Shown here one piece after another: positions 1-36,858 of a DNA stretch of 64,000 bases. The first letter of the stretch is position 1. The number at the start of each line of letters is the position of its first letter. Source of the DNA: Tomocerus qinae (Eukaryota > Arthropoda > Collembola > Entomobryomorpha > Tomoceridae); contig CM034547.1 of the NCBI GenBank assembly GCA_020055645.1, positions 7,301,280 through 7,365,279 on the forward strand. Direction: 5' to 3'. The notes beneath the pieces were generated by a model. That model was not told where the DNA came from. It searched no databases and saw nothing but the letters and a program-made list of their open reading frames with translations. The position numbers were made by a program, and so were the translations under genes.

Positions 1-3000
1 TACTTTAACTGCTCAGGCAGATAACTTTGTCTATTAGTTATTCCACAATTTCCATATGTTAATGCATTATTACAGGAGAATATACAATACTCTCCCTTCA
101 TTACGTCCTTTGCATGACTTGCAGGTGTAACAGGTACCTTACGTATATATTCACATACCTGTTTACAATGTACTAATTCCATAAAATAACACGTGTAGGT
201 AGGTAAATTATTTTTGCAAGGCAAAATGTGAGTCAATGGGTACGATGAGATGTAAAGCTTTGAGAAATTGGCTAGACTTAGGTTAGGAACAGCAACACGC
301 TAAGCCATACCGAATGAAATTCATTTCTACGCTATACCTATCCAACAACTCCCAAAGCTTTGACTTCACTAACATTGAACGTGAACTATGATGTTAACCA
401 ACAAATTTCAACCCAACTCTTACATACTCGCTTTCTACACAATTTGCATAATCTTCTGCTCAAGTACATACATAATCCTTGAGCACTATTTAATACCCGA
501 CAACAAACTTTTAATGACACAACATCATAACATCCCATTAAGTGCCAATTTTAAACATATTTAGACTTGTACATCATAACTGTGCTTACAGATACAATTA
601 TTATTGAATAAATTTTAATTATTAATTTAGTATCAATAATTAACGCCGTTACTTAATGAGGGGACAAATGAAATTGAACTAGATGTATACTGCAGGTCTA
701 ATTTCGCCGCTGCTATACAATATGTTGTGTGGGTATACTACAAGTATTATGTCCAATGCACGGTTCTGTACATGCTAGAGACTATAATGTAGTCCAAAGA
801 ATGACAACTTTCATCTTTTCACTATCACTTTAGTTTGTATATGCATAACGTTTTGGTAAATGAAAATTTAATAGTTAAGCTTAGCTTTTGTATTCGTATT
901 TATTACAGAATGTGCTTCATCTTATTTAGTGAATGGACAATGAAGACCATGAGTTGCAAGATTACCTACATACTATTCATTTCTGTGTAATCGCCAACAC
1001 AGCGGGTTTAATACGTTGAGTAAGTACTATCTGGTATTACTAAATAGGAACGTATAACTTTTCATTTCTGTCAGTGTAAGTAATTTAATGAAAGTAAGTC
1101 TATGTGTATGTGGGTAAGTGTTCGTTTCTCATTGTGAAAACATTTTAAGCTAATCTCTACTTTGCCTATATCTCTTGATTCTCAATTCCTCCTTTCTCAA
1201 TGCGCTAGAACAATTCGATAGCTCCAATGGACGTTTCTGTACAGTAATAGCTAATAAATTATTAAAATATATTCCCAAAGTCAAGATAATATTGATCGTT
1301 ATAACTTCAGGTTCAATTTTTCCATAAACTCAGCTACACTAATGATTCCTCAACCATGACATTTAATTAAAACTAATGTAATATCATGCTACTATAAAGT
1401 ACCTCTAAGTAATGCTATAAAATGTACATAGTGAAAATTGAATATGTTCCTCATTCCATTAAGGAAGTTTATGTAAGATAGAAGATGAGTATCTACATAG
1501 CGTAGCAGTACAGTACCCACTCACAGAACGATTACTTGAGGGATAATGGGATGAAGTGAGATGAGGATGAGGATGATATGCAAATGAGTAGCCAAATAAA
1601 AATGCATTGAATGGCGAAGTAAGGGGACTTGAGCTAAGGGAGAGCTTAGTGCTCTGCTGAAGTTCAATGCTTCCTCTCTCCTCCTGCATTGTGTACTTTC
1701 CCATGAAATCCAATCCAAGATACACACACAGTGAGGTAGCATAGAGAGGTATGTCCCTTAAGGGAATGAATTGAAATCCGTGCATAGAGCTATTTATACA
1801 TATACACTGATGACCAATACAAAAATGGACTGACCCCTTTCCTATAAAGCTTCGGATTTTTTAAAAACTTCTCTTTTCCTTGCCAAGAAAGACAAATAGT
1901 AAATCCTCTATTGCTCTTTGCCCTGCTCTCTCGTCTGGACTGAAAGCATAGGAATCCGTGTACTACTCATGTGCATTATCCGCATCGACGAAGTGTGAGA
2001 GCCAAGAGGAGACTGCGGGACTTCAGCTGCCCTTCGCCCATTCCAGTTCTCTCCTTCTCCAGATTTTTATAAAAATCATCTCGTCAAATAGAAGAACACA
2101 TTCATAGAGACTCCTTTTATTCGCATCTCTTACCCACGGTATTCTTAGACTCATCATACTTATTCAAACGAGAATATTATAGCTATCCATACACAATACT
2201 TGATCATACCAAATGTATTTGTGTATGTGACGCATCAAATGGCAATTGTTCCTAGCTATACATATTGTACAGTGAATTGTTCTAATCTGCTTCGATGTGG
2301 ACCACGTATATTGAAATACTGATACACTAAGCAACATAATGCGTAGATACTTGCACTGCACTGACTTAGAAGAATGAATTCATCTCCGAAATCTACTTTA
2401 CGCATACCAAACAGAGATTATATAGCCATTGACAGATTTATATTTTCTTTCCCTCTTTGCTATTACACTGTCATAATTTACTATACCAGATACACAGATA
2501 TTAATTGTTGGTTCTCTGTCAATGATCCACATATAAGTATATACTTTGGCGAATCATCTATTTGACTACAATTTACTGGTCTCTTCCATTATAATAGTGT
2601 TTCTCGCTTTACAATTGAATTTCCACGTTAACCGAGGTACCCAAAACATAAAAATGTCCTAATAGTATTCCAGGAAGGATGGCGAGTAAAATTCCATATG
2701 TTCTTTCGAAGTGTCAGTTACAATATGTAGACCAAGTACCAAAAACTACTTCCTATATCCAATTCGTCGGTTGGAACCAAATACCATAGGTGTTAATGTA
2801 ATGTGTACCTAATACAGTTTGAAATACTTATATCTGTAACATAATGCATCGAAAATCATACATGAAATAATTACATATGTCTTCCATATACCTTTTTGAA
2901 TTGTAGTAGTGTGTCCATACATATGTAACAATTTGATTTTAGATAAAGATGCCCAGTGAAGAGGTGAACTGGGGAAGTATGTGTGTCAAGTCACGAAATG

Positions 3001-6000
3001 TTGAGAAGGGTTTGCAGTCAAATCTGGAAATCAAAACGAACGGGCAGTAGAAGACACAGATACACTATTATATAGGTAACCACTAAATTGTCGGTAGGCC
3101 AATTGCTACGCAGCTGTACTCAACTGCGTGTCATGTCTGTGACGCAATAAACATACCATATGCTGGCAATAATAATAACACGTAATTTTAACATGGCCCA
3201 TGTACATCACTCACTATCAATATTATGATTAGGGAAAGGTTTACTTACACTCGCATAAAAACAGGTACCTCTGTATCTAAAAGACACATATACTACACTT
3301 TCGGTTTACTTAGCTGGGCTACCCAAAGATCGTCCTATTACAAAGTTTTAGTGAGGAATATATTTATCATGCATATTTGTTATGCGTCTGCATGAATTGT
3401 ACTGTAGTGTGTAACCTTAAGGCAGGTAGGTACTTTAACTTTTGCACGCATATGTAAAAGTACAAGTACAAGTAAAATAAAAGGTACATAAGTAACATGT
3501 CTTAACTAATAGTAAGCAAAACGCAATTGGCCGCAGCACGGAAAGGTTAATTGGAATTCAGGGAAATTGAAACGAAAGAATTTTCGAAAGAAAACACTGA
3601 AAAGAAAAGAGCCGCAGTTTGACTAAAGCTCATTCTTACAATACAATTAGATATTTGCTCAGAGGCCATGCCAAGCCAGGCTAGACTATTCATCAGCACT
3701 CGGTTGACTATTCAACCTTTCCACTATCGCCATAATCGTCAGAGCATCAAAATTCCAATTCTTTTGTGTTAATAATGCAAAGCAATTACCATCTTTTGGC
3801 TTCACAGACCAATTCCCTGCGTTTCCACTCAAACATTCCTTTTGCATATGAATTGCAAACTACAGAAATCTCCTGAATACATTAAAACTGTACACAATGG
3901 ACTTTTACATGCAAAAAACTCAATTAGCTTACCTGCAGTTCACAATAGCGAAATGAATCTTTAAAACATTAGCAATAATAAAGAAAAATCTTTACAAACT
4001 CTTTGTTAGCTTAGAGAATGGTTCAGCAGGTGAAACAGAAAATAATTTATTTGAGAATTCAATTTGATTTTTCCATAAACAAGCACCAATCATTGTTTCT
4101 TCAAAAATCTGAAAACTTTATTTGGCTACTTCTCCAGGCTATTGTTCAACAAAATGGAGATTCAAGATTTTTCATTTCAATTATTCCTGAATTGCAAGCC
4201 ATTTCCCAAATATCATCGGGCTTCAAATATACCAATTAAATAACTTTAGATTTTATCAATTCTTGTTAATGATTATTTCTGTAACAAATAACATGCTATA
4301 GGATTAGGATCTGTGCTTTGATGGTTAATGTGTTGGTCAGTTAATCCGTTTAGCAATTAAAGGCGAGAAAACGGTATCTGTGTGGTCTACATTTTTTGGT
4401 AAGATATACAGTTAAACTGTCATTGTTTATGTGGCTTCATTAATTTCTGCTCATTAAGATTGGTATGGTCAGATATGTAGGGAGTAAGGGTTGATTGTAA
4501 AAATAAATGAGGGAGATGATGAAATAGCTTAAGTGTCTTGTCTGAGCAGACGTACCTATGATGGTAACAAGTAGGAAGGAATCAGATCATTAGCAAGGAG
4601 TGCACAATATTTTATCTTTAGTTAGCTGTATAAGTACTATTTGCAAATGGGATTGTGTTGTGAGTTCTGACGTTTTGTTAGGAAGAGTGTCTGCACAGTG
4701 CAAAGTCAGGTGTAGTCGTGTAGAGATAATATATCAAAGGAGAGATGTGAGTCGTTTGACAGAGAGCAGGCCAAGCCAAGTCTCGAGAAGTGAGTCAAAA
4801 AATGGAACTTGAGAAAAGACGTGAGGGAGAGGAAGAAGGAGCAGCCACTTCTTGCACTGACTCTGTGTGCATTAGATATTACAGAAATAATCATAATCTG
4901 AGATGGGTAATAAGGTGGATTGAGTTTAGCAGAGTCTGCAGATTGAAAAGTGGAGTGTGTATGTACAGTAACCGCGACAATCGCCCAAAAACTAGAAGGA
5001 CCGGTTAGCTCATCATCAATGAAACGGTTCTTTTTTGTGAGGGTGGAGACCTGCCCATCTCCACTCTGCCTCACTCACAGACTTGTCTTCTTATGTATGT
5101 TGGCTAATGCATGACATTGGCATTGCACTATTGGCATCACATTATGTACTCGTTCGTACCAAAGGTGAAACACAAAGATCATCTCTCCAACACACATAAT
5201 ACTTACGTGTAGCTATTTTATATATGTACACATGCTATGTATTATTATATAACAATATTGTACAGCTCAACGGTATAAAAACAAATGCCCCATCCTACCA
5301 TGTGAGTGAGTAATACAACAGCAATGGATGGAAATATAATGGTTTGTGTTCACAACATTTCTTCAGCACTACAATTTATATGATCTTTGGTCTGGTCGGG
5401 AAAATATGATGCAGTTCCGGTTTGTCTATAGCCTACTGCCTCACACACACAGACAGCCCTCCACTAAACTACTGTACTCCACTCTCTATACTTACACTCA
5501 TATTTTATTGCACTACATTATTAGCACTCTTTTGTTTTCTTTGGTTTACCTTATTGACTTACTGTTCTTACTAGCCACTACTACTACATTACCTACCTAA
5601 TATTATTATACCTGCCTTTTGCTACTTAATACCTTGATTCATCTCTTTTTCCCGTTAAATATTTCTCATAAGCCTCTCTCTGATCAGTCTCTCTCACCTG
5701 TCAGATACTAATGTAACTTATTATGTCCGAGTACTCTGTATTATTCAACTCCTAACCCATATCATCATAGTGCTATCATCTAGTACTCAATTCTTTTGAA
5801 CACAGTACAAAATTATAATTGTTACACTTATGTACACGTACAATTTTCTAGAAGCATTTTTTGTGGTTTACCCTATGCATAAATACATATATAGTGGCCA
5901 TAATCAAATTCCTGACATTTGTGGCCTAGTTAGTCTTTTGCTTCTGCAGTAGCAATATTGCACAATACTGTTACATACTTTAAAGGAATACAGTATACTT

Positions 6001-32495: not shown

Positions 32496-33960
32496 TAATG
32501 AAATGATTTATTTCCACTGAATTTGTAGCATAGATTGGAGATAAATAATATCGTAGATTGAATAGAAGGTATTAAAGTTGTGAATAGCAAGAATGTTTAT
32601 TTGGAAATGTGAACACAATATACGATTTCACTGTAATAAAATGGTCTGTTGTTTAGCTATGCCAAGTTAGGATTAACACTATTGCAGAGAAAATTAGGAA
32701 TGAACCCAGAGGAAGAGAAAGCTGAAAGTTAGGATTTGGAAGAAAGTAGATATTATGAAGATGAAGTCCTTGAGAAAACTGGACAGAGTGATAGTGTTAT
32801 GTATCAATATTATTATGTAAGTGCGAGGGTGTATTGAGGAAGTGATTGAATGACTGGAGAAGAAAGAGTGTAAACAATGGAGGGTGATGATAAGGCTTAC
32901 AAGTTCAAGTGTATTGCTATTGAAGTGAGAAAACTGGAAATAGGAGCAGAAGAGAGCAAGTGATTTTGAGTTGAGTAATGTAAAGTAAAGTAAACTGGTC
33001 GACTTTGAGAGTAAAGTAGAGTTGTATTCTATCTCATCGTAATCGTAGTAGGAAAGTACAGCGTAACACAGAGAGAGAGTACAGAGCAATGTTATGATGT
33101 GTAAAATGGGCTGATAGAATGGAGAGACTTGCATTGTGAATGGGTAGGTCGGAAACAACTTTTTGAAAATGGGTTTAAGGAGAAAAACCTGCTGGATCAT
33201 CATGACTTGCTTTGCTTTGCGAGCTACAGTGTTTCTCCGACTATACCACATTTCTATAGTTGGGATATAATATTATGTAGTTCTATCCACTCTTCTGATA
33301 TGATTGTTAGCTCGGCCATGTAGGTACAGTATTGGATCTGGTTTCGAAAAAATATGAATGAACAACTTTTTTCATTCAACTCCTCCAAGTGATCATTCAT
33401 AAGAAGAAGAAAACGGACGGACACTCACATCACCCTCGCCTTCCTCCAAACATCACACTATCACCGCGTAGCTCTACTTCGTTTCGTTGACCGACTCACT
33501 ATTATCTAATGTGATGTACTACATCGTCTTTAAGGAAAGCGACCTTCCCGTCTATTACCGTAGGACTACACGAGCGAACTTCAAGTTAGTCCTGTTCCGT
33601 CCCACCCAGCAGTTTCACAATTTAACTAAACCACCCGACTGCAGAAAAAGTAAACTTTTCCTCGCTTTTCATAATCCACTGACCCTCACAACAAATCCTA
33701 ATGCAATTTAAATATGGTTAAATTGAATTTTGTAGGTTCTTCTAACAATTTTTCATGAATAATGTATTTCCTTTTCTTGATGGGCCATCGTTGTTACGGC
33801 AATGGTGCAGGCTTCAAAAGACTCAGATTGTTTTTGCCACAAATGGGGATGTTGCTGGGCAACCAGCAAAAATGTGACCTTATACAGGAATTTACACCAT
33901 TGGCTAAATTTATTTTAAATGAGTTAGCCTTATCAAAAAAAAGCCTGAAACATTCTCTAC
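32496..33960. other. Non-coding, with purine-rich plus strand
   Basis: From about 32694 to 33130 the plus strand is rich in A and G, which depletes TTA, CTA and TCA and so opens a 185-codon frame on the minus strand (32694-33251). Its translation is dominated by Ser, Leu, Phe, Ile and Thr with no domain I recognise, and the plus strand is interrupted by stops in the frames I checked. I treat the frame as a composition artefact. The region 33330-33960 holds only short frames (64-75 codons) of no recognisable kind. Confidence 0.5.
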
Positions 33961-34160
33961 ATTTTTAAAAAAAATTCGAATTTTTTATGTCATTCCTTCT
34001 ATTTTTAATGAGCATTTCAAATAAAAGCATTCCAGATAGTCAGTCAATATTACTAAACCACTTCAATGACACAAATCACCCGAATTCCATCAAAAGGAAA
34101 CCCGATCATGTTACACACTTAGACAAAAACTTTGAAAATGTAAGAATTAAAAATTGGTAC
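33961..34160. other. AT-rich left flank of the satellite
   Basis: This spacer before the palindromic satellite holds a perfect 18 bp palindrome, AAAAAATTCGAATTTTTT, at 33969-33986. No monomer-like sequence is visible before about 34161. Confidence 0.5.
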
Positions 34161-35770
34161 TCATCCCTACAGGGTAAAAAATTATGGCTTATTCAAATAT
34201 GGACAGCGATATAGAGTAAAACTAATACCACGCTATATAGGGGATTTACCCCCATATGGGAGGAATGTAAATATTGGATTTGGATGTTGAAATTCATTTC
34301 ATGGGAAAAAGAATATGGCGAATTTAAATATGGAGACTGCTATAGTGTGAAAATATTACCCGCTATATAGGGGTTTACCCCCAAATCGGAGGAATGTAAA
34401 TATTGGATTTTGATGTTGAAGCTTATTTCTACAGGGTAAAAGAATATGGTGAATTTGAATATGGACACCGCTATAGTGTAAAAATATTACCCCGCTATAT
34501 AGGGGGTTTACCCCCATGTCGGGGGAATGTAAATATTGGATTTTGATGTTGAAATTCATTTCTACGGGTAAAAGAATATGGTGAATTTAAATATGGACAC
34601 CGCTATAGTGTGAAAATATTACCCCGCAATATAGGGGGTTTACCCCCAAATCGGAGAAATGTAAATATTGGATTTGGAGTTTGAAATTCATTCCTACTGG
34701 GTAAAAGAATATAGCGAATTCAAATATGGACACCGCTATAAAGTGAAACTAATACCCCGCTATTTAAGGGGTTTACCCCCATATCGGGGGAATGTGAATA
34801 TTGGATTTGTATGTTGAAATTCATTCCTATGAGGTAAAGAATATGGCGAATTCAAATATGGACACCGCTATAGTGTGAAAATAATTCCCCGCTATATAGG
34901 GGGTTTACCCCCACATAAGGGGGATGTAAATATTGGAATTTGGATGTTGAAATTTATATTCTTTCATCCCGTAGGGGATGAATTTCAATATCCAAATTCA
35001 ATATTACATCCCCCGATTTGGGGGTAAACCCCCTATATATTATTTTCACACTATAGCGGTGTCCATATTTGAATTCTCCATATTCTTTTACCTGTAAGAA
35101 TGAATTTCAACATCCAAATCAATATTTACATCCCCCGATTTGGGAGTAAACCCCCTATATAGCGGGGTATTATTTTCACACTATAGCGGTGTCCATATTT
35201 GAATCCGCCATATTCTTTGACGTCGTAGGGACAAATTTCAACATCCGAATCCAATTTTTACATTTCCCCAATATGGGGGTAAACCCTTTATATAACGGGG
35301 TATTATTTTCACACTATAGCGGTGTCCATATTTGAATTCTCCATATTCTTTTACCCCGTAAGATGAATTTCAACATCCAAATCCAATATTTTACATTCCC
35401 CCTATGTGGGGTAAACCCCCTATATAGCGGGGTAACCATTTCACACTATAGCGGTATTCATATTTGAATTCGCTATATTCTTTTACCCAGTAGGAATGAA
35501 TTTCAACATACAAATCCAATATTTACATTCCCCCGATTTGGGGGTAAACCCCCTATATAGCGGGGTATTATTTTCACACTATAACGGTGTCCATATTTGA
35601 ATTTGCCATATCCTTTTACCCCTTAGGGATGAATTTCAACATCCAAATCCAATAATTGCATTCCCCCGATTTGGGGGTAAACCCCCTATATAACAGGGTA
35701 TTATTTTTACACTATATCGGTGTCCATATTTGAATTCACCATATTCTTTTACCCCGTAGGGGTGAATATC
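34161..35770. repeat. Head-to-head palindromic satellite, ~132 bp monomers
   Basis: Six monomers run forward, with the GCTATATAG landmark (or its variant) at 34232, 34362, 34494, 34626, 34759 and 34891, so the period is 130-133 bp. Six more run in reverse, with the reverse-complement landmark near 35033, 35153, 35285, 35417, 35552 and 35683. The orientation flips at about 34950-34985, where GAAATT and AATTTC flank a ~22 bp spacer containing CATCCCGTAGGGGATG. Each monomer carries, in order, CCCCGCTATATAGGGG, a TTTA spacer, C5 then G5 separated by a variable pentamer, AATGTAAATATTGGATTTGG, GATGTTGAAATTCATT, a TACGGGGTAAAAGAATATGG box and AATATGGACACCGCTATAGT. The first reverse copy lacks the AGCGGGGTA part. 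No coding sequence is maintained across copies; a 67-codon frame at 34356-34559 merely crosses two of them. I do not recognise the family. Confidence 0.9.
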
Positions 35771-35990
35771 AAAATTTAATATGGCCGATTTTAAATTATT
35801 CATAAATTTTGGTGGTTATAAGCTGTTGGGTGAAATGTGTATTTCATGGTGATGAATAATATGAAAGGTTAAATTGAGTAGGCTCGCTTCATCTTGGCTT
35901 TTCTCAATAAGTGGTTTGGTAGCGGATGGTGGATTTTCCCTTATAAAGTCTCAAATTATCATAGAGGGTAAATGGGAATCGGAAAAATTC
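35771..35990. other. Spacer between two inverted repeats
   Basis: AT-rich spacer with no gene. A short inverted pair, ATTATTCAT near 35797 and ATGAATAAT near 35852, flanks about 45 bp. Nothing else is visible. Confidence 0.45.
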
Positions 35991-36326
35991 GTACTTTTTT
36001 TTGAAAATTCCCTAAGGATCTGAGACCACTAGTCCTACAGCCGTACAATAATTTTTAAAAAATTCTTCGATACTTATTCTATGATAGTTATTTTGAAAAT
36101 TCCACATTTTGGTCTTCGACTTGAAGACATCATCGTTTGAAACCGAAAAATGTGTGTTTTTTTGTGAATTATATATTGCGAATTTATATCTTCAAGCCAA
36201 AGCCCAAAATGTGGAATTTTCAAAATAACTATCATAGAATAAGTATCGAAGAATTTTTTTAAAATTATTGTACGGCTGTAGGACCATTGGTGTCAGATCC
36301 TTAGGGAATTTCCAAAAAAAAGTTAC
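35991..36326. repeat. 336 bp foldback with ~138 bp arms
   Basis: Positions 35991-36128 and 36187-36326 are inverted copies differing at scattered positions, separated by about 58 bp of unrelated AT-rich sequence. Each arm contains, reading inward, an A/T run, GGGAATTTT or its reverse complement, CCTAAGGATCTGA, GTCCTACAGCCGTACAATAA, ATTCTTCGATACTTATTCTA, TGATAGTTATTTTGAAAATT and CCACATTTTGG. Outer ends are poly-T and poly-A runs rather than a crisp terminal repeat, and no target-site duplication is evident. It may be a palindromic MITE with eroded ends, or two copies of a dispersed repeat joined head to head. No coding capacity. Confidence 0.8.
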
Positions 36327-36481
36327 TGGCAAATTTGATAGTCGAGAAATCATTTTCGTTTCCATGCACCTGGGCTTTAAACAAATCTTATTTTAATCTT
36401 TACTCTACATAAACATAATCTTTTAAACATAAAGTGGGACATGCGCATGGAATTCTTTCACCATTCTTGAATAAAGGATTG
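36327..36481. other. Spacer between foldback and MITE
   Basis: AT-rich, with no gene or repeat seen. Confidence 0.4.
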
Positions 36482-36483
36482 TA

Positions 36484-36858
36484 CAGGGTGACCCACTAGT
36501 CGTGCACGCCTAGTTGAGAACTTGAGAACCAGTGCAGCTAGAGACAAATGGTTACCACTGTTGGAAAGAAGAAATTCTAACTTAAAGATTGGTGTATCAT
36601 ACGTAATGATTGAAATGATATCTCGGGTCAAAAAAATTAATTCTATTTGTAAAAATGTGCTACTCCCGCAATGTATTAAAAATTTTTTTTAATGAATTAA
36701 TTTTTTTGACCCGATATATCATTCTAATCATTACGTATGATACACCAATCTTTAAGTTGGAATCTCCTCTTTCCAACGGTGGTAACCATTTGTCTCTAGC
36801 TGCCCTGGTTCTCAAGTTATTAACACAAACTATGTGTGCACGACTAGTGGGTACCCCG
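36484..36858. mobile_element. 375 bp TA-flanked palindromic MITE
   Basis: Arms at 36484-36643 and 36694-36858 are inverted copies with scattered differences, around a 50 bp centre. The termini are CAGGGTGACCCACTAGTCGT on the left and, read inward on the other strand, CGGGGTACCCACTAGTCGTG on the right. TA lies directly outside both ends (36482-36483 and 36859-36860), consistent with a TA target duplication and a Tc1/mariner-type transposase acting in trans. The inner arm contains TTGGTGTATCATACGTAATG in both copies, followed by GGGTCAAAAAAATTAATTC. A 72-codon frame (36655-36873) runs through the right arm and is not a gene. The arms are less similar than those of the 206 bp nested element, suggesting an older copy. 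Confidence 0.85.

Follow-up and report, generated by a model that had tools for sequence, protein, structure and literature searches.

Tetris, a foldback element of Drosophila virilis, is described in the available sections of its report as an outer flanking domain joined to a tandem array (~220 bp), with target-site duplications of 8–10 bp; these sections give no coding copy and suggest that the element belongs to Mutator (PMC4079207). Galileo, a member of the P superfamily in Drosophila, has sites in its long inverted repeats that are bound by the THAP domain of its transposase, according to the available parts of two accounts (PMC3573991, PMC3688188). Sola2 elements, in the excerpted account, make 4-bp AWWT target duplications, ATAT, AAAT and ATTT being named, and have inverted repeats of 12–13 and 21 bp that are partly imperfect (PMC3627910).

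The DNA analysed here, referred to as the window, is a stretch of 64,000 nucleotides of Tomocerus qinae, at C2:7301280–7365279, in which an earlier note had described a 132-bp satellite flipped head to head at 34161–35770. This palindrome was found to lie inside a 2,079-bp DNA transposon copy flanked by AAAT on either side (Table 1). Judging from the sequences compared, it is very probably a non-autonomous foldback copy of a cut-and-paste DNA transposon that has lost its interior and would be moved in trans by a protein with the uncharacterised Pfam domain DUF7869. As in foldback elements generally, the long inverted repeats are built of direct tandem repeats, and non-autonomous copies composed mainly of inverted repeats occur next to rarer coding copies.

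The likeness to Tetris, within the available sections of that report, comprises long inverted repeats with an outer domain and an array, non-autonomous copies and a variable repeat number; the differences are its 8–10-bp duplications and its lack of a coding copy, as opposed to 4-bp AWWT duplications and DUF7869-coding relatives here (PMC4079207). Gene-bearing relatives in the same genome are thus what this family adds to the Tetris study. Galileo, in the parts available, also has foldback-like long inverted repeats, with tandem repeats in some subfamilies (PMC3573991, PMC3688188), but its 7-bp duplications and its THAP-domain P-type transposase have no counterpart in our element (PMC3573991). 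A foldback element of the Mutator or P type, like FB, Tetris or Galileo, would therefore have the right architecture and the wrong duplication length. In addition, only DUF7869 passes the Pfam cut-off among the coded proteins, weak matches to DUF4835, RTBV_P46, CDC45, RFX and Acetyltransf_19 staying below it, and we regard that assignment as very improbable.

Sola2 is closer in two respects, namely the AWWT duplications (20 of 24 copies of the window family and both copies of a sister family) and the short imperfect inverted repeats (24 of 33 positions matching here), whereas inverted tandem arrays go unmentioned in the excerpted Sola2 account (PMC3627910). On these sequence features the element may be called Sola2-like, not Sola2, the likeness covering duplications and inverted repeats. 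A literature search, with most subscription journals outside it, returned no paper that joins Sola2 with foldback elements and none that names DUF7869.

The palindrome and the element around it

Tandem Repeats Finder, run on the window, reported a forward array at 34167–34962 (period 132, 6.0 copies, score 1105) and a reverse array at 34956–35772 (period 133, 6.2 copies, score 1161), and the monomer matches at locus L012 lie on the plus strand across the first array and on the minus strand across the second. An inverted-repeat search found two stretches of arm, one of 422 nt with 85% complementarity and one of 273 nt with 89%, around an unpaired centre of 26 nt that was read from the sequence. 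Both the period and the flip, for which the earlier note had proposed tandem-repeat finding, are thereby confirmed, as are its roughly six forward and six reverse monomers of ~132/133 bp opposed around a spacer near 34965.

The predicted fold of the plus-strand RNA (1,610 nt) has a minimum free energy of −1074 kcal/mol, compared with −357 to −370 for five mononucleotide shuffles; it contains 713 centre-spanning pairs, and its longest perfect helix is 37 bp. RNA of the palindrome would thus fold almost entirely back on itself, and together with the inverted-repeat arms this supports the suggested hairpin with arms of about 780 bases. Such a fold, in an arthropod host, is what one would expect of a hairpin-RNA locus, a palindrome kept since its RNA feeds an siRNA pathway that represses the family. 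The genome has 114 matches to a cuticle chitin-binding domain, as an arthropod would, against matches in 0 of 14 control genomes. However, the structure is explained by the transposon design. The hairpin consists of array sequence and the DUF7869 gene is absent from it, so a self-silencing role is weakened; we consider this explanation very unlikely. Hairpin RNA, cruciform extrusion and fragility are possible side effects of the foldback structure.

The boundaries of the element follow from comparison with other loci. Similarity to the window copy stops about 290 bp outside the array at end A, in a comparison with 32 other loci, and about 200 bp outside it at end B, with 27 other loci. The termini, GTGACC... 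and ...GTCTC, form an imperfect inverted repeat of 33 bp.

Table 1. Parts of the transposon copy in the window, with the basis of each assignment
Feature	Position in the window	Strand	Basis
Left target-site duplication, AAAT	33870–33873	.	Aligned ends, duplication tally
Complete transposon copy, 2,079 bp, GTGACC...GTCTC, read as a non-autonomous foldback element	33874–35952	+	Similarity limits, aligned ends
Left imperfect terminal inverted repeat, 24/33 matching the right one	33874–33906	+	Exact-end comparison
End A, outer region of ~290 bp, monomer-free	33874–34160	+	Similarity limits, genome search
Forward array of six ~132-bp monomers	34161–34954	+	Tandem-repeat finding, monomer matches, centre comparison
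Example of the monomer dyad, GGGGG-loop-CCCCC between AT-rich arms; the sister-family consensus keeps its core	34490–34525	+	Monomer comparison
Palindrome centre, 26-nt loop, read as an internal-deletion junction	34955–34980	.	Sequence, centre comparison
Reverse array, about 6 monomers	34981–35772	−	Tandem-repeat finding, monomer matches, centre comparison
End B, outer region of ~180–200 bp, monomer-free	35773–35952	−	Similarity limits, aligned ends
Right imperfect terminal inverted repeat	35920–35952	−	Exact-end comparison
Right target-site duplication, AAAT	35953–35956	.	Aligned ends, duplication tally

Dispersed copies and varied centre junctions

A search of the 334-Mb genome gave at least 176 matches to the array (best 40 of 75 candidates scored) and at least 40 to end A (best 40 of 115 candidates scored), some of the latter spanning part of end A. 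The element is thus dispersed in many copies. Thirty-seven loci were extracted for comparison. Twenty-four copies could be read at both ends, and 20 of these have identical 4-bp target duplications, all of the form AWWT (AATT in 3, ATTT in 5, AAAT in 5, ATAT in 7). The four without a matching 4-bp duplication are L016, L020, L034 and L041. L016 is flanked instead by a direct duplication of 24 bp, which suggests an aberrant insertion, and L041 has flanks in common with L036, so these two loci are not independent. At L018, end A is present and a match to end B is absent, while L035 is a short copy with a B-type end at either side, perhaps a recombinant of two elements. L014 lies within a local repeat, and the 18-bp string of its unoccupied site occurs 4 times in its flanks; a 20-bp string, two bases longer, does not occur there.

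The family has moved recently. L025 and L026, which differ in site, flanks and duplication, have 100% identity over 2,002 bp; L014 and L016 are 99.96% identical, again with different flanks. Within the window's six-copy subfamily pairwise identity is 97.2–99.96%. These six near-identical copies, all with the window-type junction, sit at different sites, five of them with matching duplications. Palindromic repeats are error-prone in assembly, and a false join at the junction, the artefact that the earlier note had warned of, had to be weighed. Since the same junction recurs at unrelated sites with intact duplications, and other junction types occur elsewhere, such an artefact appears extremely improbable.

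True satellite DNA with one inversion would account for the period and the array form, which are satellite-like. A satellite is a head-to-tail array without mobile-element ends, whereas here readable ends A and B surround the arrays in the 24 copies with their 20 identical duplications. Moreover, monomers in both orientations are present at 27 of the 37 loci (one orientation at 10), with different centres, and the inverted layout around a gene is kept in two families. No long head-to-tail arrays were seen among the 37 loci, the genome search having covered the best 40 of 75 candidates. We judge the satellite explanation to be highly improbable. The earlier note was therefore right about the head-to-head geometry and the capacity to form a hairpin, and not about the satellite or the single flip: the arrays are subterminal repeats in a transposon that has defined ends and is flanked by target-site duplications, and the flip, taken to be single and unusual, is common and has junctions that vary by group.

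At least six types of centre junction were distinguished by eye in the short copies: the window group, L019/L021–L026, L020, L027–L029, L030/L011 and L032/L034. The junctions of L036 and L041 differ again from these. Because the short copies show several centre types, the interior appears to have been lost repeatedly, opposed monomers being joined each time. The palindrome is apparently an internally deleted, non-autonomous foldback derivative that arose several times, and its centre reflects the meeting of two element halves rather than an odd satellite. In the course of events that we propose, the parent would have had the layout of the longer relatives, namely end A, an inward array of ~133-bp units, an interior of 4.5–6.7 kb with DUF7869, the opposite inward array and end B. 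The interior was probably lost via aborted repair or recombination between the inverted arrays, which would bring the two arrays together head to head and so create the palindrome. Having kept both ends, the short copies could be mobilised in trans if the DUF7869 protein acts on them, and this protein would make the 4-bp AWWT target duplications. Separately, an 874-aa frame that looks like a reverse transcriptase (named by sight) was noticed within the reverse array of L011, at 1618–4242 on the minus strand.

Gene-bearing relatives and the DUF7869 protein

Two relatives of the window copy carry a gene between inverted arrays. L009 is 9,012 bp long and has an AATT duplication; its interior of ~4.5 kb lies between monomer matches, 15 of them forward and 16 reverse. 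For L010 the counts are 10 and 11, around an interior of the same size. The A end absent from L010 was found in L045, ~6 kb away along the sequence. Read by eye, L010 has AATT after its B end, with a terminal motif that is off by one base, and L045 has AATT before its A end, which fits one element that would have been split by a nested insertion. The interior frames of L009 and L010 (675 and 570 aa) match DUF7869 with E values of 4.7e-16 and 4.2e-16, and only these two places in the genome match this protein at >90%. The ends of the DUF7869-bearing relatives are only 91–95% identical to those of the window copy, so none of these relatives is identified as the mover of the window subfamily. Upstream of the DUF7869 frame, three related short frames with an EANGG...SNGQ-like stretch in common are seen in both elements (L009, 5132–6487 on the minus strand; L010, 2872–4236); they are perhaps repeated exons.

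More distant DUF7869 genes are found in compact elements of ~2.5–2.7 kb with inverted repeats of 30–41 bp. They form three groups with copies >99% identical, L056 being single. Four have frames of 472–552 aa, the proteins of which match DUF7869 at E values of 1.2e-11 to 9.3e-7, and the frames of L059 and L060 are broken. AATT stands at both sides in seven of nine compact copies, L056 and L058 lacking a matching duplication. In the tandem repeat that flanks L053, the empty-site string with a single AATT occurs 7 and 22 times, and in this case AATT is therefore a target duplication and not element sequence. At L053 (867–1071 and 3546–4253) the compact element is inserted in this repeat, which runs in 27-bp steps. 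At L060 (1–3829) a compact element was observed beside an inverted partial copy, the whole being nearly palindromic over 2,304 bp.

The compact elements with their AATT duplications support DUF7869 as a transposase, and the aspartates D323, D402 and D444 (L009 numbering), candidates for the catalytic acidic triad of a DDD/E transposase, are among the invariant columns in an alignment of 7 proteins. We infer from these comparisons that the DUF7869 protein would be the acting transposase, which links an uncharacterised domain to a likely role. Searches for known transposases gave little. A PDB search with the protein retrieved 16 matches (E 0.11–8), mostly designed proteins and no solved transposase, and one with the DUF7869 profile retrieved only 3 engineered proteins (E 0.65–0.68). 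None of three proteins scored above the NCBIfam cut-offs, the sole transposase-named match being ISNCY (E 0.015, 14.4 vs. 250 bits). Relatives of the DUF7869 protein accounted for none of 65 pattern matches in viral contigs and none of 44 in genome contigs.

A sister family and the conserved monomer

A second family turned out to have the same design. Its protein is 54% identical to that of the window family by genome search and 51% in the alignment, and the protein at L046 matches DUF7869 with an E value of 1.5e-13. The two sister copies, S1 and S2 (12,431 and 12,296 bp), both have ATAT duplications and differ in their outer flanks. Each contains 27 monomers in forward orientation and 12 or 11 in reverse, with a period of 133 bp, and their arrays are oriented relative to the gene as in the window family. 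The consensus monomers of the two families, built from 58 monomers of the window family and 37 of the sister family, match at 89 of 129 positions, or 69%, and the matching blocks include the GGGGG-loop-CCCCC dyad. Its inner-stem pairs hold in 80–91 of 92–95 cells across the 95 monomers and are nearly always the same pair, so that they say little on selection for pairing. The outer pairs differ between the families. When the dyad was slid without gaps, the best shift was −1 (0.56, against 0.44 at shift 0), an offset that a bulge of one base would account for.

Period and orientation have been retained despite the divergence of the two families, which points to a function of the arrays. Because the transposase of Galileo binds to the repeats of that element through its THAP domain, the arrays are best read, by analogy, as docking sites for the transposase, the monomers most likely being repeated sites of this kind. 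Ends A and B share only 8-base matches with the monomer and no monomer-like blocks, so the docking idea is unsupported there. A broader proposal is that the inverted 133-bp arrays of DUF7869/Sola2-like transposons are an old pair of docking arrays under selection, their period, orientation and a dyad core of ~30 bp having been maintained as the protein diverged to 51–54% identity, and that repeated losses of the interior turn such elements into palindromic parasites of their parent. We put this forward tentatively, as a possibility somewhat short of even. If the docking-array reading is true, the elements would represent a line of foldback transposons separate from FB, Tetris and Galileo, and DUF7869 would gain a function. 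With the 133-bp inverted arrays that they share, the two diverged families offer a test case for why transposons keep long arrays.

Two shorter palindromic repeats of MITE-like appearance were noticed in the window. One, at 35985–36330 just beside the element, has arms of 138 nt (93%), and its family occurs at 95–100% identity in the best 40 of 719 candidate places. The other, at 36505–36830, belongs to a different family with arms of 131 nt (92%), the best 40 of 186 candidate places being 92–100% identical.
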